From: Pseudomonadota bacterium
GTDB taxonomy: Bacteria > Desulfobacterota > Desulfovibrionia > Desulfovibrionales > Desulfomicrobiaceae
Reading direction: 5' to 3'
Length of the DNA: 39,596 bases
Assembly: GCA_030529235.1 (NCBI GenBank)
Contig: JAUMXF010000010.1
Coordinates: 1 to 39,596 of the forward strand
A program made the position numbers and the translations under genes. Every line of letters begins with the position of its first letter. Position 1 is the first letter of the stretch. Positions 9,843-35,657 of this stretch are shown here, one piece after another. Under the pieces are notes generated by a model. That model worked only from the letters and a program-made list of their open reading frames with translations. It was not told where the DNA came from and made no database searches.

Positions 9843-11956
9843 TATTCATCCTCCAAACCGGAGACAGGAAAGGTCAGACGGACACAGGTTCCGTGTTCTG
9901 GGATGGATTGGATGGCTAAATTCCCTCCGTGCTCTTGCATGATACGAGAGGAAATGGGTAGTCCAAGACCGGTACCCCCGGAGGCGCGTTTGGTGGTGTA
10001 AAAGGGGTCGGTTACATGAGGTAGGTCGGCGCTTGCGATGCCTTGGCCCTCGTCGGACACTTCCAGCCAGATTTCTTTCCGGTTGTGTCCGGTACGGACA
10101 CGGATGGCTTGGTTCTTGTTCTGCAAGGCCTCGCAGGCGTTCTGTAAGATATTGATGATGACTTGTTCAATTTTTTGAAAATTTCCCTGGAAGTGCGGAA
10201 TGCCGAATCCAAAGGAAACTTCCAGCTTGTTCGTGGCCTTGCACAGTTGGTTATCAATCAATTGCAGGGCGGTTTTGAGTGCGCTGTTTATGTCGACGAT
10301 CTCGTCCAACACTGCGGAGCCTTGCCGGGCATAATCCTTCAGATTCTGAACGATGGTTTTGATGCGCCGGGACGCATTCATGATGCCGGAAAAAAGCTGC
10401 GGGATGTGCTCCCTGGCATAGGAATAACGCAGGTTACCGAGCACGAAATCTCCGTTTTCATCCATGTATTCGTCCAGAATGACCTGCGCGTCCCGCCATA
10501 TGCGCTCAAGCAGGGGAACATTCAGGATGATGGCATTGTTGGGGTTGTTGATTTCATGGGCCACTCCCGAAACCAGTATCCCTAAGGACACCATCTTGCC
10601 CGCTTGCACGAGTTGTTCATATTCAATCTTGGCTTGTTTTTCCGCAGCCTTGCGTTCAGTGATATCCCGAAAGGCGATGAGGGTGGTGCCCGAGCGAATC
10701 AGGGCGCGTTTGATGTTGGCCATGAGCACACGCTTTTGGCTGGTCTTGTCCGTAATCTCGACTTCTCGACTGCGTATTTCCTGATGTTCCCTCAATTCTT
10801 GGGGCGAATAGAACTGGTATCCCACGAGATTGAAGATAGTGCGGGCAGCAAGAATTTCTTCTGTATCCCGGCCAAAAACATTAGCGGCATTACAGCTGAC
10901 GAAAACAAGGTCGCCCGCGTCTGTGGTAAGAAAAATGGCGTCCCAAATGCTTTCCAGGGTGATGCGATGGAATGCTTCGGATTCTTGGAGCATGTCCACC
11001 CGGTGTTTGTAGCTGGTTAGATCTTTGTAGCTCTTAACGATACCAAGTATTTCCCCGGTACTGTCGCGCAGGGCCGCAACCTTGACCAGACAAGACTTCC
11101 TTTCCCCCGACGAAGAGAAAAATTCCTTTTCAAAATCGGTCTTGAAGGAGCCGACTACCAGCTCCTGAAGGATGCAGTGATCCGTGCATTTATGACGACA
11201 GGGAATGACATTAAAGCATTTTTGGCCGATCAATCTGGCCACGGGTTTTTCTACCAGATCGGCAAAGGCCCGGTTTGCACGGACAATATTGCGCTCCGTG
11301 TCCAGAACGAGCAGGCCGTCGCCAGATGCGTCAAAAATTTCCTTCAGCTCCGCATAAGCCTGCTCCAGACTGAGCTCTATACTCTTGCGGCGTTCGATTT
11401 CAGCATTGAGTGAGTCTGCGTACTCCCGCAAAGCCTGTGTCCTGTCCTCGATAATTTTTTCCAACATGTGCAGAAGCGCTTGCCGTTCATTTTCTTTAGC
11501 TTTGATATCAGTGATGTCTTTGAAGGTGGCCAGAACATAGCCTTTTCCCTCGGCTTCGATGCGACTTAAGGTCACTTGAGTGTCGATGGGAACGCCGTCG
11601 CGGCGGATGTCTTTCCACTTAAACTGCTGGATATTGCCGTTTAACGCCTCGTTTATTTTTCTCTGGGCCGATTCATGAGAGCATTCTCCGTCAGGCTGGA
11701 GCTGGGGGGCGAAGTCACTGGGAAAAAAGCCGATAATGTCATTTTTTTCACAGCGCCAAATATGGCAGGCCGCTTGATTACATTCCACGAGTTTTTCGTC
11801 GATGAGCAGTACGCCATCGGACAGGCCCTGGAGGATGGCTTCGTACTTTTGTATTTTTTTGTGCAGTTCCTCGATTTTTTGATCTTTTTTTTGGAGCAGG
11901 CCGGAAGTTTCGGAGTGCGCTGCTAAGGATGGCCTGGCTGGGTGGGGAGTATGCAT
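9842..11956 (-). CDS. Multi-PAS sensor histidine kinase
   Basis: A 704-residue, apparently soluble kinase with no membrane segment. A short coiled coil (about residues 22-40) is followed by three PAS-like segments, at about 45-155, 205-325 and 330-440. The second holds an unusual cysteine group, IPCRHKCTDHCILQ (about 253-266). The dimerisation domain has phosphoacceptor His467 in GVAHEINNPNN. The ATPase domain has ILQNACEAL, VSDEGQGI and GGTGLGLPI. The start at 11956 has no good ribosome binding site, so it is less certain. Cysteine-bearing PAS domains of this kind often sense redox state or bind iron-sulfur clusters; that is an inference. It is co-transcribed with the response regulator. The 200-bp upstream gap showed no clear promoter. 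Confidence 0.92.
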   Translation of the reverse strand: MHTPHPARPSLAAHSETSGLLQKKDQKIEELHKKIQKYEAILQGLSDGVLLIDEKLVECNQAACHIWRCEKNDIIGFFPSDFAPQLQPDGECSHESAQRKINEALNGNIQQFKWKDIRRDGVPIDTQVTLSRIEAEGKGYVLATFKDITDIKAKENERQALLHMLEKIIEDRTQALREYADSLNAEIERRKSIELSLEQAYAELKEIFDASGDGLLVLDTERNIVRANRAFADLVEKPVARLIGQKCFNVIPCRHKCTDHCILQELVVGSFKTDFEKEFFSSSGERKSCLVKVAALRDSTGEILGIVKSYKDLTSYKHRVDMLQESEAFHRITLESIWDAIFLTTDAGDLVFVSCNAANVFGRDTEEILAARTIFNLVGYQFYSPQELREHQEIRSREVEITDKTSQKRVLMANIKRALIRSGTTLIAFRDITERKAAEKQAKIEYEQLVQAGKMVSLGILVSGVAHEINNPNNAIILNVPLLERIWRDAQVILDEYMDENGDFVLGNLRYSYAREHIPQLFSGIMNASRRIKTIVQNLKDYARQGSAVLDEIVDINSALKTALQLIDNQLCKATNKLEVSFGFGIPHFQGNFQKIEQVIINILQNACEALQNKNQAIRVRTGHNRKEIWLEVSDEGQGIASADLPHVTDPFYTTKRASGGTGLGLPISSRIMQEHGGNLAIQSIPEHGTCVRLTFPVSGLEDE

Positions 11957-22958: not shown

Positions 22959-23630
22959 ATGAACACATTCCGTTCCGCTCATAACGTGGCACTGGAAACG
23001 GGTCAATGTGGAGGGTGGCCGGAAGTGAGTTGGACACAAGAAGCTCAGGTGCTGCGGCAGGGGGGCCTGCTGATTTATCCGACGGAGACGTTTTACGCTC
23101 TGGGATGCCTGGCGACGGAGCATAGTGCTGTGGAGCGGATTTTCGCGGCCAAGGGGCGGTCCCGGGAGAAGACCGTACCCCTTATCGTCTCCAGCTGGGG
23201 CATGGTGGAGAAATTTCTCCGTCTGTCCCGAGTTGCTCAGGCCCTGGCTGAGGCTTTTTGGCCCGGACCGCTTTCCATTGTGACGGATGTGGATGAATCC
23301 ATCAGTGCGTTGGCGCGCGATGGTGCGGGGCAGGCGGCTGTACGTATGACCCCGCATCCCGTTGCCCGGATACTGTGCGAGTCAGCGGAAGCCCCTCTTG
23401 TTTCCTCCAGCGCGAATTTCAGCGGCAGGCCCCCCGTATGTGCGCCGCAGGATCTGGACGCCGGGCTTGTGCGGCTCTCTGGAGCCATGGTGATCGATGC
23501 CGAACCCTGGCCCCAGGGCGGATTACCCTCGACTCTGGTGAAGCCAGTGGACGGTCGGGCGCTGCGGATATTTCGGGAAGGTGCGGTGCGGGTATCGGAA
23601 CTGACGGCTCAGGGGTACGAGATAGTGTAG
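22959..23630 (+). CDS. tsaC: L-threonylcarbamoyladenylate synthase family protein (TsaC/YrdC/Sua5)
   Basis: A protein of 223 residues from ATG 22959, or 201 from GTG 23025. The GTG has GGAGGG nine bases upstream and is the better start by ribosome binding site. The YrdC domain starts GGLLIYPTETFYALGC, has KGRSREKTVPLIV, the conserved binding segment, and SSANFSGRPP. It makes threonylcarbamoyl-AMP from threonine, bicarbonate and ATP, the first step of tRNA t6A modification, or belongs to the related YciO group. The divergent upstream gene is the uncharacterised protein at 22386-22847, with 111 bp between. Confidence 0.87.
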   Translation: MNTFRSAHNVALETGQCGGWPEVSWTQEAQVLRQGGLLIYPTETFYALGCLATEHSAVERIFAAKGRSREKTVPLIVSSWGMVEKFLRLSRVAQALAEAFWPGPLSIVTDVDESISALARDGAGQAAVRMTPHPVARILCESAEAPLVSSSANFSGRPPVCAPQDLDAGLVRLSGAMVIDAEPWPQGGLPSTLVKPVDGRALRIFREGAVRVSELTAQGYEIV

Positions 23631-23749
23631 TTCAATTTTTTTTACGGTATAATTCCTGTTCTCCAGCTGTAACAAGGGTCTGTAAAAATAATTGTATCAA
23701 GAATAGCTGTGTTGTTTTGTGTCACTTGAAAATAAGTATTGTATTCTGG

Positions 23750-23905
23750 TGAGATACAGGCTTTTCAAATAATTTCCTTTTTGGCCCGGACCTTGCTTTA
23801 TCTCAGGTAACTTCCTCTTTTTGCCAGAATCGGCTCCCGCATCGAAAGGTCCGGGAGCCGATTTTGTTCGGGCTCCTTTTCGGGCCAACAGCCCGGACAG
23901 TCTAC
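23750..23905 (+). ncRNA. Candidate structured RNA or attenuator leader upstream of the Nudix-glgA cassette
   Basis: Several exact inverted repeats compete. TGAGATA (23750-23756) pairs with TATCTCA (23799-23805). CCCGGACCTT (23785-23794) pairs with AAGGTCCGGG (23846-23855). The second would block the terminator arm at 23852-23863. Downstream, GTTCGGGCT is nearly mirrored by AGCCCGGAC (23891-23899), and CGGGC/GCCCG flank a five-base loop. Mutually exclusive helices plus a terminator are the layout of transcription attenuators. A short free RNA ended by the same terminator is the alternative. No known riboswitch class was recognised. Confidence 0.4.
23828..23866 (+). terminator. Strong 12-bp intrinsic terminator-like hairpin
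   Basis: AATCGGCTCCCG (23828-23839) is perfectly mirrored by CGGGAGCCGATT (23852-23863), with a 12-base loop, followed by TTG after the stem's own TT. It lies about 200 bases after tsaC and 290 bases before the Nudix gene, so it either ends tsaC or a small RNA, or acts as an attenuator. Confidence 0.6.
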
Positions 23906-23962: not shown

Positions 23963-24130
23963 TTACTGCTGGTCCCGCATTCCTTTCCGGATGACCCGCC
24001 AGTGAGATGTTTTGCCGTGGGAGTGGTCCAAATATTTTGTCCGGGCTTTATTGTTCGGAAGGCGCTTTTTGAGCCGCTTGGGGACTTCTGCTTCAGAAAA
24101 ATTGATGGTAGGCTGATTCCAATGGGGCAA
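23963..24130 (-). CDS. Possible small basic protein (55 residues, TTG start)
   Basis: A leftward frame ending in TAA (23963-23965) encodes, in part, PTINFSEAEVPKRLKKRL, TKYLDHSHGKTSHW and RVIRKGMRDQQ. The composition is protein-like, basic and rich in Lys, Arg and His. No ATG lies upstream before a stop near 24228; TTG at 24130 is the best start I can place and it has no ribosome binding site. It could equally be the C-terminal remnant of a lost gene, or chance. Family unknown. Confidence 0.25.
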   Translation of the reverse strand: MPHWNQPTINFSEAEVPKRLKKRLPNNKARTKYLDHSHGKTSHWRVIRKGMRDQQ

Positions 24131-24156
24131 GAAGATGGAAACAGGGAGGAATCCAC

Positions 24157-32064: not shown

Positions 32065-34272
32065 ATGAACGCCCCCCGCTTCATTCCGGTACAGCAGCGC
32101 TCGGGCCAGGAGCGGCGCAAGCGGCGGCGGGAAATCGCGCTGGCCGTCGCGGCGGTCCTGCTCATCGTCATCCTGAGCTGGGTCGAGCTGCGGCTTCTGG
32201 GCCTCAAATCCTATCTCTTTTTCGCTCTGTTCAACGTCAATCTGATCCTGCTCATTCTGGTCCTGTTTCTGGTTCTGCGCAATGTGATCAAGCTCTTGCT
32301 GGACCGCCGCCGCCGCGTATTGGGCTCCGGCCTTAGGTCCCGGCTGGTGCTGGCGTTCGGCACCCTGTCTCTGGTGCCGACTCTGATCATGTTTCTGCTG
32401 TCCCTGTGGTTTGTGCAGACATCTGTGGATTACTGGTTTCATTCTCAGGTGGAAACTTCCATGGATCAGGCCTTGAGCGTGGGGCAGGATTTCTACGCCT
32501 CCGCCGAGGCCGGACTTGAAGTAAAGGCCCGCGGATTTCTGGAATACACCCGCAGATCCCGCATGGGCTGGACGGGCAAGAGTCTGAACCAAGCCCTGAA
32601 AGCCAAAAGTGCAGAGTACGGCCTGACTCTGGCCGGAGTCCTCGGCCCTGACATGCGGGCCAGGGCTTGGGTTGCCGACCCGGTATGGGAGGACGTCTGG
32701 CCCGGGGTCCTGGAGAAAATCCCTCACGAGGAACTGACCCGGCAGCCCAGATATTGGGCCACCCTGTGGCCGCACAGGGAGAGTGATCTGGTGGTGGGGG
32801 TTATGCCCGTAGACGCTTCGGGCACCCTGTTTCTTGTGCTTGGAACCGGGGTGGGGCCGCGTTTTCTGGACCGCTTGGAGCAGATCGCCAGAGGCGTTGG
32901 CGAGTACAAGCAGTTGCGCTCCCTGAAATACCCGCTCAAATGGACCCTGTACATGGTTCTCGGGCTCATGACGCTGGTCATTCTGCTCGGGGCCACATGG
33001 TTCGGATTCCGTCTGGCCAGAGAGCTGAGCGCGCCGATCCAGGCTCTGGCGGCCGGCACCCAGCGCATCGCCAGGGGGGATCTGTCCGTGCGGCTCATGG
33101 ACGACTCTCGGGACGAACTGGGGCTTCTGGTGCGTTCCTTCAACAGCATGGCCGAGGATCTGGAACAGAGCAGTCTGCGGCTGACCAGGGCCAACCGGCA
33201 GCTGGAGGAACAGTACCAGACGCTCATAGCCAGAAACCATTATGTGCAGGCCATTTTGGAGAACATCACGGCCGGAGTGGTCTCTCTGGATCGCAGCGGC
33301 CGCGTCACGACCATGAACCGGGCGGCGGAGGCCATTCTCGGGGTGGAGGAGGGTGCTTTGCTGGGCCGTTCCGCCCTGGAGCTTCTGGGGCCGGAGCATC
33401 GCGGGCTGGTGGAGGAGGTGCGTTCACTGCTGGAGAGCAGTCCTGGCTCGCAGTGGCAGCGGCGGCTGGATCTGGAGGCCGACGGAGAGAGCATCCGCCT
33501 TCTGGTCAACGCCGTGGCCCTGATGGACAGCGAAGGCGGCGACAGCGGCATCGTGGCGGTTTTCGAGAACATATCCGAACTGGAAAAGATGCAGCGGCTG
33601 GACGCCTGGAAGGAAGTGGCCCGGCGCATCGCCCACGAGATCAAAAATCCGCTCACGCCCATCAAGCTGTCCGCCGAACGTCTGGAGCGCAAATTCGGAA
33701 GCCGGATCGGCGACCCGGTGTTCAGTCAGTGCACGGAGCTGATAGTCAAGCAGGTGGAGCACCTGCAGGAAATGGTGCGGGAGTTTTCCGCCTTCGCCAA
33801 ACTGCCCGAGGTCCGTCTTCGTCCGGGGGCCCTGGAGCCCCTGCTGCGGGAAGTGGCTGACGTGTTCGCCAGAAGCTACACGCATATTCAGTGGGCCGTA
33901 CGGGCGGAGCCCGTGCCGCAGGTCATGCTCGACCCTGAGGCCATGCACCGGGCTCTGTACAATATCTTTCTCAATGCCACCGAAGTCCTGTCCGGCCGGG
34001 AAAACGGCCGGGTGGAGGCGGTTCTCTACGCCCGCAAGCGCAAGGGCCGCGTCTATGTGGAGATCGGCGACAATGGTCCGGGCATCAAACCCGAGGAGCA
34101 GGCGCGCATGTTCGAGCCGTACTACTCCACCAAGCGCGGAGGAACCGGTCTTGGCCTGACCATCGTCAAATCCGTCGTGGGCGATCATCACGGTCATGTG
34201 CGGGTCAAACCCGGAGACCCGTCGGGGACGGTCTTTGTCATCGAACTTCCGGCGGCCAGAGCGGAGGAATGA
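32065..34272 (+). CDS. NtrY-like membrane sensor histidine kinase
   Basis: A 735-residue kinase. Membrane helices near the N-terminus (IALAVAAVLLIVILSW, LFFALFNVNLILLILVLFLVL, LIMFLLSLWF) precede an extracytoplasmic domain. A further helix (MVLGLMTLVILLGATWF, about residue 295-311) leads to a HAMP domain. A PAS domain (about 390-500) follows. The kinase core has phosphoacceptor His524 in AHEIKNPLTPIK, N-box IFLNATEVL, DNGPGIKPEE and GGTGLGLTIV. This is the NtrY layout. It overlaps the ntrX-like gene as ATGA. NtrY/NtrX systems regulate nitrogen and redox genes through sigma-54; the signal here is unknown. Confidence 0.92.
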   Translation: MNAPRFIPVQQRSGQERRKRRREIALAVAAVLLIVILSWVELRLLGLKSYLFFALFNVNLILLILVLFLVLRNVIKLLLDRRRRVLGSGLRSRLVLAFGTLSLVPTLIMFLLSLWFVQTSVDYWFHSQVETSMDQALSVGQDFYASAEAGLEVKARGFLEYTRRSRMGWTGKSLNQALKAKSAEYGLTLAGVLGPDMRARAWVADPVWEDVWPGVLEKIPHEELTRQPRYWATLWPHRESDLVVGVMPVDASGTLFLVLGTGVGPRFLDRLEQIARGVGEYKQLRSLKYPLKWTLYMVLGLMTLVILLGATWFGFRLARELSAPIQALAAGTQRIARGDLSVRLMDDSRDELGLLVRSFNSMAEDLEQSSLRLTRANRQLEEQYQTLIARNHYVQAILENITAGVVSLDRSGRVTTMNRAAEAILGVEEGALLGRSALELLGPEHRGLVEEVRSLLESSPGSQWQRRLDLEADGESIRLLVNAVALMDSEGGDSGIVAVFENISELEKMQRLDAWKEVARRIAHEIKNPLTPIKLSAERLERKFGSRIGDPVFSQCTELIVKQVEHLQEMVREFSAFAKLPEVRLRPGALEPLLREVADVFARSYTHIQWAVRAEPVPQVMLDPEAMHRALYNIFLNATEVLSGRENGRVEAVLYARKRKGRVYVEIGDNGPGIKPEEQARMFEPYYSTKRGGTGLGLTIVKSVVGDHHGHVRVKPGDPSGTVFVIELPAARAEE

Positions 34273-35657
34273 TGTTTTCCGGCGCATCCATTCTCATTAT
34301 CGACGACGAACAGGACATCCGTCTTTCTCTGCGCGGCATTCTGGAGGACGAAGGCTGGCGGGTGAGCGAGGCCTCATGCGGCGAGGATGGACTGGAGATG
34401 CTGTGCGGCGGGGATTTCGATCTCGTCTTTCTGGACATCTGGATGCCGGGCATGGACGGCATGGAGACGCTTCGGGCCCTGCGGGAAAAGGGCGTGGACA
34501 TCCCGGTGATCATGATTTCCGGCCACGGTAATATCGAGACGGCGGTTACCGCCCTGAAGGGCGGGGCCTTCGACTTCATCGAGAAGCCCCTGTCGCTCGA
34601 CAGCATTCTGGCGGCCGCGGCCAAAGCTCTGGAGCTTTCGTGGCTGAAGCGCGAAAACAAGGCCCTGCGTTCCCGGATCGGGTCCGGAATTTCTCCGGTC
34701 ATCACCGGGTCGTCACCACAGATCGTGAAGCTGCGGGAACTGATCGGTCAGGTGGGGCTGTCCGACGCCTGGGTGCTGATCACCGGCGAGAATGGAACAG
34801 GCAAGGAAGTGGCGGCCCGGTGCATCCATCTGGCCGGGAAACGGGGACAGCGGGAAATGGTCTGCGTCAACTGCGCGGCCATTCCCGAGGAGCTGATCGA
34901 ATCGGAACTGTTCGGACACGAGAAGGGCGCGTTCACCGGGGCGGACAAAGCCAGGAAGGGCAAGTTCGAACTGGCCGACCAGAGCACGCTTTTTCTGGAT
35001 GAAATCGGGGACATGAGTCTCAAGACCCAGGCCAAGATTCTGCGCATCCTGCAGGAGCAGCGCTTCGAGCGGGTGGGCGGAACCAAAACCATTCATGTGG
35101 ACGTGCGGGTCATCGCGGCTACCAACAAGGATCTGGGGCAGGAGATACTGGCCGGGCGGTTCCGTCAGGATCTCTTCTATCGCCTGAACGTCTTTCCCTT
35201 GTCCGTTCCGCCCCTGCGGGAGCGGGCTCAGGACATCCCGGAGCTGATCGGTTTTTTTTCGGCGCGCATGGTAGAGGAGCACAATCTGCGCCCGGTACGG
35301 CTGACTTCAAAGGCGCTGGACGTGCTGAAAACCTACGCCTGGCCTGGCAACGTGCGTGAACTGAAGAATTTTGTGGAGCGCATTTTCATTCTCTATCCGG
35401 GCCAGGAAGTGGACGCGGCCATGCTGCCGCCCGAATACCGGGCCCGGACCGCGAACGGCGGTTCAGACCCGCTGGAGGAATTGACGGATTTCAAGGAGGC
35501 CAGGGCCCGCTTCGAAGAGCGTTTTCTGCGCAGAAGCCTGGCCCGCTCCGACGGCAACATCAGCCGCCTGGCCGAGACCATCGGCCTGGAGCGGACCTAT
35601 CTGTACCGCAAGCTCAAGGCTTACGGCATCAGCGTGGATGAGGGCCGGGGCGACTGA
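34269..35657 (+). CDS. NtrX-like sigma-54-dependent response regulator
   Basis: A 462-residue NtrC-family activator. The receiver domain (to about residue 125) has phosphoacceptor Asp56 in FLDIWMPGMDG and the ISGHGN, IEKPLS motifs. The AAA+ domain has Walker A GENGTGKE, sigma-54 contact GAFTGA, Walker B LFLDEIGDM and ERAQDIPELI. A Fis-type helix-turn-helix ends ISRLAETIGLERTYLYRKLKAYGI. It overlaps the NtrY-like kinase gene as ATGA. It is the cognate partner of that kinase by position and family. Confidence 0.93.
   Translation: MMFSGASILIIDDEQDIRLSLRGILEDEGWRVSEASCGEDGLEMLCGGDFDLVFLDIWMPGMDGMETLRALREKGVDIPVIMISGHGNIETAVTALKGGAFDFIEKPLSLDSILAAAAKALELSWLKRENKALRSRIGSGISPVITGSSPQIVKLRELIGQVGLSDAWVLITGENGTGKEVAARCIHLAGKRGQREMVCVNCAAIPEELIESELFGHEKGAFTGADKARKGKFELADQSTLFLDEIGDMSLKTQAKILRILQEQRFERVGGTKTIHVDVRVIAATNKDLGQEILAGRFRQDLFYRLNVFPLSVPPLRERAQDIPELIGFFSARMVEEHNLRPVRLTSKALDVLKTYAWPGNVRELKNFVERIFILYPGQEVDAAMLPPEYRARTANGGSDPLEELTDFKEARARFEERFLRRSLARSDGNISRLAETIGLERTYLYRKLKAYGISVDEGRGD

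Follow-up and report, generated by a model that had tools for sequence, protein, structure and literature searches.

A predicted sigma-54-controlled small RNA gene widespread in the Desulfovibrionales

Among the small RNAs known to depend on sigma-54, several have named activators: Qrr (LuxO), GlmY (GlrR) and CrcZ (CbrB). Some small RNAs also carry unpaired, pyrimidine-rich seeds of the anti-Shine-Dalgarno kind, which the locus described here resembles, by description, in having an unpaired run rich in C and U whose complement would be a ribosome-binding site. With Qrr, GlmY and CrcZ it has in common a small RNA gene with a -24/-12 promoter, a distant activator and the occurrence of tandem copies; unlike them it has no Rfam match at gathering thresholds, belongs to another bacterial order, specifies a shorter RNA and is found where no Hfq was found. 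Within the Desulfovibrionales, four sigma-54-regulated ncRNAs have been reported from Desulfovibrio vulgaris Hildenborough (PMC4641369; PMC3333781), and the parts of the first account drawn on here place them relative to DVU0653, DVU0679, DVU3282 and DVU2357 and name DVU0653, DVU0679, DVU1419 and DVU2359 as their activators (PMC4641369). These share with the present small RNA the order, the sigma-54 control and the ncRNA nature; none is described next to sua5 in those parts of the account (PMC4641369), the comparison being one of descriptions, so that identity with one of the four is possible. Since the control logic is that of Qrr, GlmY and CrcZ while the sequence is different, we regard the small RNA as a new family within a familiar type of gene, presumably sigma-54-controlled and set apart from the D. 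vulgaris ncRNAs by description only. A term search of a paper on the ncRNAs of Oleidesulfovibrio alaskensis G20 (PMC11124144) returned no mention of it, and a literature search, mostly at the level of titles and abstract openings, brought up no paper recognised as describing it. The preliminary description of this DNA had recognised no known class, and at gathering thresholds no Rfam family matches the window or 20 homologous loci. A lone match at E 4.2, which is chance level, was rejected as a sign of Rfam membership.

The window, meaning the whole stretch of 39,596 nucleotides that was analysed, corresponds to a single contig from a genome of 2.3 Mb, 99% complete. The features at the locus are as follows.

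23037..23630, + strand: sua5/tsaC-like gene, start codon approximate (PF01300, 147.7 bits; TIGR00057 above cut-off)
23630..23645, + strand: predicted enhancer palindrome 1, GTTCAATTTTTTTTAC, 0 mismatches to GTWMAAWWWWTTKWAC
23682..23697, + strand: predicted enhancer palindrome 2, GTAAAAATAATTGTAT, 52 bp from palindrome 1, 1 mismatch
23781..23796, + strand: predicted sigma-54 promoter TTGGCCCGGACCTTGC, with GG at 23783-23784 and GC at 23795-23796, conserved as GG-N10-GC; it contains the former 'competing' arm, 23785-23794
23808..23869, + strand: small RNA of about 60 nt with predicted ends, start at 23808 or 23809 (covariance models R1 and R2)
23809..23825, + strand: unpaired 5' region AACTTCCTCTTTTTGCC, putative seed, invariant in the genus and with almost only C/U changes at positions 4-17 across the order
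23826..23865, + strand: terminator hairpin of 18 bp, with covariation

We consider it highly probable (roughly 0.85) that these make up a free-standing, activator-driven sigma-54 small RNA gene, widespread in the Desulfovibrionales, whose product of about 60 nt would act as an antisense on ribosome-binding sites without Hfq. Comparison of related sequences brings out the predicted promoter and enhancer pair, the hairpin, the constant 5' end and the neighbourhood; the exact start, the activator, the antisense mechanism and the targets are what we infer from them. An enhancer-binding protein, possibly NtrX-like, would bind the two palindromes, about 110-178 bp before the start, and once bound would switch on sigma-54 RNA polymerase at the promoter. 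The polymerase would then make the RNA from near 23808 to the hairpin, and the unpaired 5' end (CUUCCUYYUUUUGC) would base-pair with target mRNAs at their purine-rich ribosome-binding sites, repressing translation, again without Hfq.

The most prominent element is the hairpin, inverted repeat CAGAATCGGCTCCCG/CGGGAGCCGATTTTG (23825-23839 with 23852-23866), which is 93% complementary with its inner 12 bp perfect. A second inverted repeat, CCCGGACCTT/AAGGTCCGGG (23785-23794 with 23846-23855), is 10/10 complementary, so that both the perfect 12-bp stem and the exact 10-bp upstream repeat of the preliminary description were found where it had placed them; further repeats near the hairpin also appear in the inverted-repeat listing. 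Folding of the 126-nt strand is better than in 200 of 200 shuffles (z -3.76). A simple terminator scanner has no entry at the hairpin, where the U-tract, TTTTGTTC, is interrupted. The ends of the small RNA are predicted from the -12 element (start) and from the terminator (end).

When the intergenic region is searched as DNA, a match is found in 15 of the 16 genus genomes including this one (14 of the 15 others), and the one without a match, G007, is an assembly only 63% complete. Beyond the near relative G011 the matching part is a block of about 60-105 nt with diverged flanks, and its layout is the same in 15 of 15 genus copies: GG-N10-GC, 11-13 nt, AACTTCCTCTTTTTGCCA and the hairpin (the G010 copy is truncated at a contig end). 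Contigs G003:C435, G006:C20 and G010:C380 and C216 end inside or near the element, as if the hairpin had broken the assembly. In the genus alignment (14 sequences, 12 of them distinct) 97.2% of the hairpin cells pair, and two-sided changes occur in 5 of the 18 pairs, exceeding all 500 shuffles. Covariance model R1, built from these 14 sequences, finds matches, at E<=0.01, in 77 of 297 genomes of the order, part of them to the hairpin only. Among 44 full-length matches from outside the genus, double changes are seen in 15 of the 18 stem pairs, with 176 double-changed cells vs 46.6 in shuffled alignments, counts that lean towards the R1 structure because the rows were fitted to it; the signal is lost when the partner column is shifted by one to three columns. 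The hairpin thus has the compensatory changes in relatives for which the preliminary description had suggested looking, and the competing 10-bp pairing lacks them; the small RNA that it had offered as its alternative is strongly supported.

Model R2 was built from the 44 non-genus matches, with no genus member inside, after six R1 matches (L057, L180, L184, L185, L188, L189) that have neither 5' region nor promoter had been judged false. Of the 16 genus genomes it recovers 14, each with an E of 4.2e-11 or lower, and at E<=0.001 it matches 122 of 348 order genomes; each of the six families is represented, and some among the weakest matches cover the hairpin only. Of 297 genomes sampled across the phylum, matches are seen in 21, and 3 of these belong to the Desulfovibrionales; the 18 from outside the order are weak (best E 2.4e-6), and promoter and sua5 are absent at all three of those loci that were inspected. 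For the census of copies 77 were taken from 102 rows and 74 counted: hairpin-only and reverse-strand rows, one partial L176 row, one weak L186 row and the L184 and L185 rows were left out, and the outside-order rows L319, L320 and L321 are listed but do not belong to the 74.

Ahead of the block lies GG-N10-GC, which we take to be the signature of sigma-54 promoters. It is present in 15 of 15 genus copies, and in 72 of the 74 counted copies it ends 3-18 nt ahead of the model start (12.4% at random positions of the same loci); the two without it are the lower copy of L186 and the second copy of L191. The ten-base spacer that separates GG from GC in the window is CCCGGACCTT, identical to the 'competing' arm. 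If GC occupies -13/-12, the predicted start falls near 23808, so the arm at 23785-23794 should not be in the RNA.

Further upstream lie the putative enhancer sites. The palindrome motif GTWMAAWWWWTTKWAC was drawn from 15 upstream regions that also belong to the later counts, for which one copy was taken per locus with at least 200 nt upstream (n=63) and up to 2 mismatches were allowed 45-330 nt upstream. At least one site is found at 63 of 63 loci and at least two at 58 of 63, against 2.25 and 0.0 in simulated sequences and 7 of 61 and 2 of 61 in downstream controls. The distance between the two is mostly 51-54 bp, or some five turns of the helix. The small RNA locus is the only place in this genome with the exact motif, and pairs of an enhancer-like site and a promoter elsewhere are nearly all the element itself. 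When up to 2 mismatches are allowed, the window holds just one further enhancer-like palindrome, its third, GTTCAATTTTTTGAAA at 10165-10180, with one mismatch.

The 5' region, invariant as AACUUCCUCUUUUUGCCA in the genus, is the most constant part of the RNA, with a mean identity over 44 rows of 0.95 vs 0.70 for the stem. Across the order it takes the form CUUCCUYYUUUUGC, and many non-genus copies read CUUCCUCCUUUUGC, both presumably resembling the anti-Shine-Dalgarno sequence of 16S rRNA. Over 58 rows, positions 4-17 show C/U exchanges only, plus one G to A, and a C/U exchange retains pairing with G. Because of this resemblance, and because the changes keep pairing, the 5' region most likely pairs with purine-rich ribosome-binding sites of mRNAs. 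An unlikely alternative is that it binds a protein and not mRNAs: a fixed pyrimidine-rich sequence for which pattern searches of limited reach found no conserved target would fit this, as would the failure to find Hfq, but protein binding does not account for changes limited to C/U exchanges, which preserve pairing with G or A. Hfq (PF17209) was found in 0 of 61 genus, family and order genomes at E 0.001, while the same search gave a signal in 5 of 14 controls, so that an antisense small RNA would need to work without it. With regard to targets, a search of the 16 genus genomes for the complement of the 5' region with at most one mismatch returned, at zero mismatches, the elements themselves and, at one mismatch, scattered places. 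The pattern AGAGGAAG-N2-12-ATG occurs at 87 places in five genus genomes with no conserved target among them; one pair of recurring proteins (at least 40 aa) lies near such sites, in G001 and G015, and was read as GAPDH-like, and the near relatives G000 and G011 have four protein matches in common there, one of them weak.

Could the small RNA be real and yet be a local regulator of the adjoining Nudix gene? In this genome the Nudix leader (24122-24140) is complementary to the 5' region, with a pairing energy of -18.3 kcal/mol (p 0.004), which speaks for such a role, but among relatives the pairing is not conserved, reaching p<0.05 at only 3 of 24 loci, two of which are this genome and its nearest relative, and the Nudix gene does not always adjoin the element. 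We regard local regulation as improbable.

The neighbour that does recur is sua5, which precedes 63 of the 74 copies in the same orientation; among the other 11 copies, the DNA available upstream is shorter than 2 kb for 8, and in L187, L198 and L199, which have more, none was found. This position, together with the strength of the hairpin, is what would be expected if the element were only the terminator of sua5, with no RNA of its own, but such a terminator leaves unexplained why 18 nt ahead of the hairpin are constant, and likewise the promoter, the palindrome pair and the tandem copies, and we think it very unlikely. Downstream there is less constancy. Nudix or glgA follows 59 of the 74 copies, and 10 copies whose downstream DNA runs to 3 kb or more are followed by neither, among them that of G015, of the same genus, where a rubrerythrin-like frame lies downstream; in L153 a downstream frame oriented towards the element was read as heptosyltransferase-like. 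The glycogen cassette is no constant neighbour, and control of glycogen genes, which had been proposed as the output of the locus, is not implied by it; the earlier reading is corrected in this respect. The least probable explanation, and one we would set aside, is the attenuator originally proposed for the leader of a Nudix-glgA operon, in which pairing with the arm at 23785 would displace the terminator: the exact 10-bp complementarity in this genome and the frequent Nudix or glgA gene downstream agree with it, but the arm is the spacer of the sigma-54 promoter (the start point itself being predicted) and hence promoter DNA, its pairing with the terminator falls from 10/10 here to 9/10 in G011 and 6-8/10 in the other 12 aligned relatives, so that the exact repeat is peculiar to this genome and carries little weight as a switch, and no co-directional downstream gene is constant, the cassette being missing after those 10 copies.

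If the small RNA gene is driven by a sigma-54 activator, the best candidate is encoded in the window itself, as one of a pair of genes.

32065..34272, + strand: sensor kinase resembling NtrY, the partner of the candidate listed next (PF19312 NtrY_N reaching its cut-off; also HAMP, PAS and HisKA)
34269..35657, + strand: NtrX-like sigma-54 activator, candidate regulator (PF00158, Response_reg, Fis-type HTH; occurrence in six genomes)

The best NCBIfam model for the second protein is NtrX, at 472.5 bits and below the 600-bit cut-off, and it carries the GAFTGA motif. Sigma-54 activator domains match at 15 places in this genome, two of them inside the window. Occurrence was compared over six genomes: this one, the element-positive G018 and G058, and the R2-negative G030, G042 and G054 (all one genus). 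Only 2 of the 15 activators, the NtrX-like protein and a regulator in L358, find a best-hit partner in each positive genome and in none of the negatives. NtrX is reported to recognise CAAN3-5TTG in Brucella abortus, CAAN2-5TTG in Sinorhizobium meliloti and GCAN9TGC in Rhodobacter sphaeroides (PMC9223101). Enhancer sites such as GTTCAAAAAATTGTAC include CAA-N4-TTG, and other sites carry half of it only. On balance the NtrX-like protein may well be the activator, at somewhat less than even odds.

The Desulfovibrionales are rich in sigma-54 activators, but the literature searched describes few small RNAs from them. The present family comes delimited, with a predicted promoter, an enhancer pair, a 5' end, a terminator, a candidate activator and a covariance model that reaches across six families, and where Hfq is not found the control of translation by sigma-54 through a small RNA becomes directly testable. 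More speculatively, and we think this rather unlikely, the RNA might be order-wide and Hfq-independent, with a 5' end that copies the 16S anti-Shine-Dalgarno sequence, and be activated by NtrY/NtrX via sigma-54 as a broad brake, under stress, on translation that starts at strong ribosome-binding sites; if so, it would link NtrYX directly to translation in bacteria with no detectable Hfq.

Some loci carry more than one copy. Two or three tandem copies, about 300-1000 nt apart and each with its own promoter, are present in L174, L175, L178, L179, L223, L323 and L324. There are also degenerate extra copies, one at L191:5001-5062 (minus strand), which is without a GG-N10-GC promoter, and one at L176:4786-4846, which has both the enhancer pair and the promoter.
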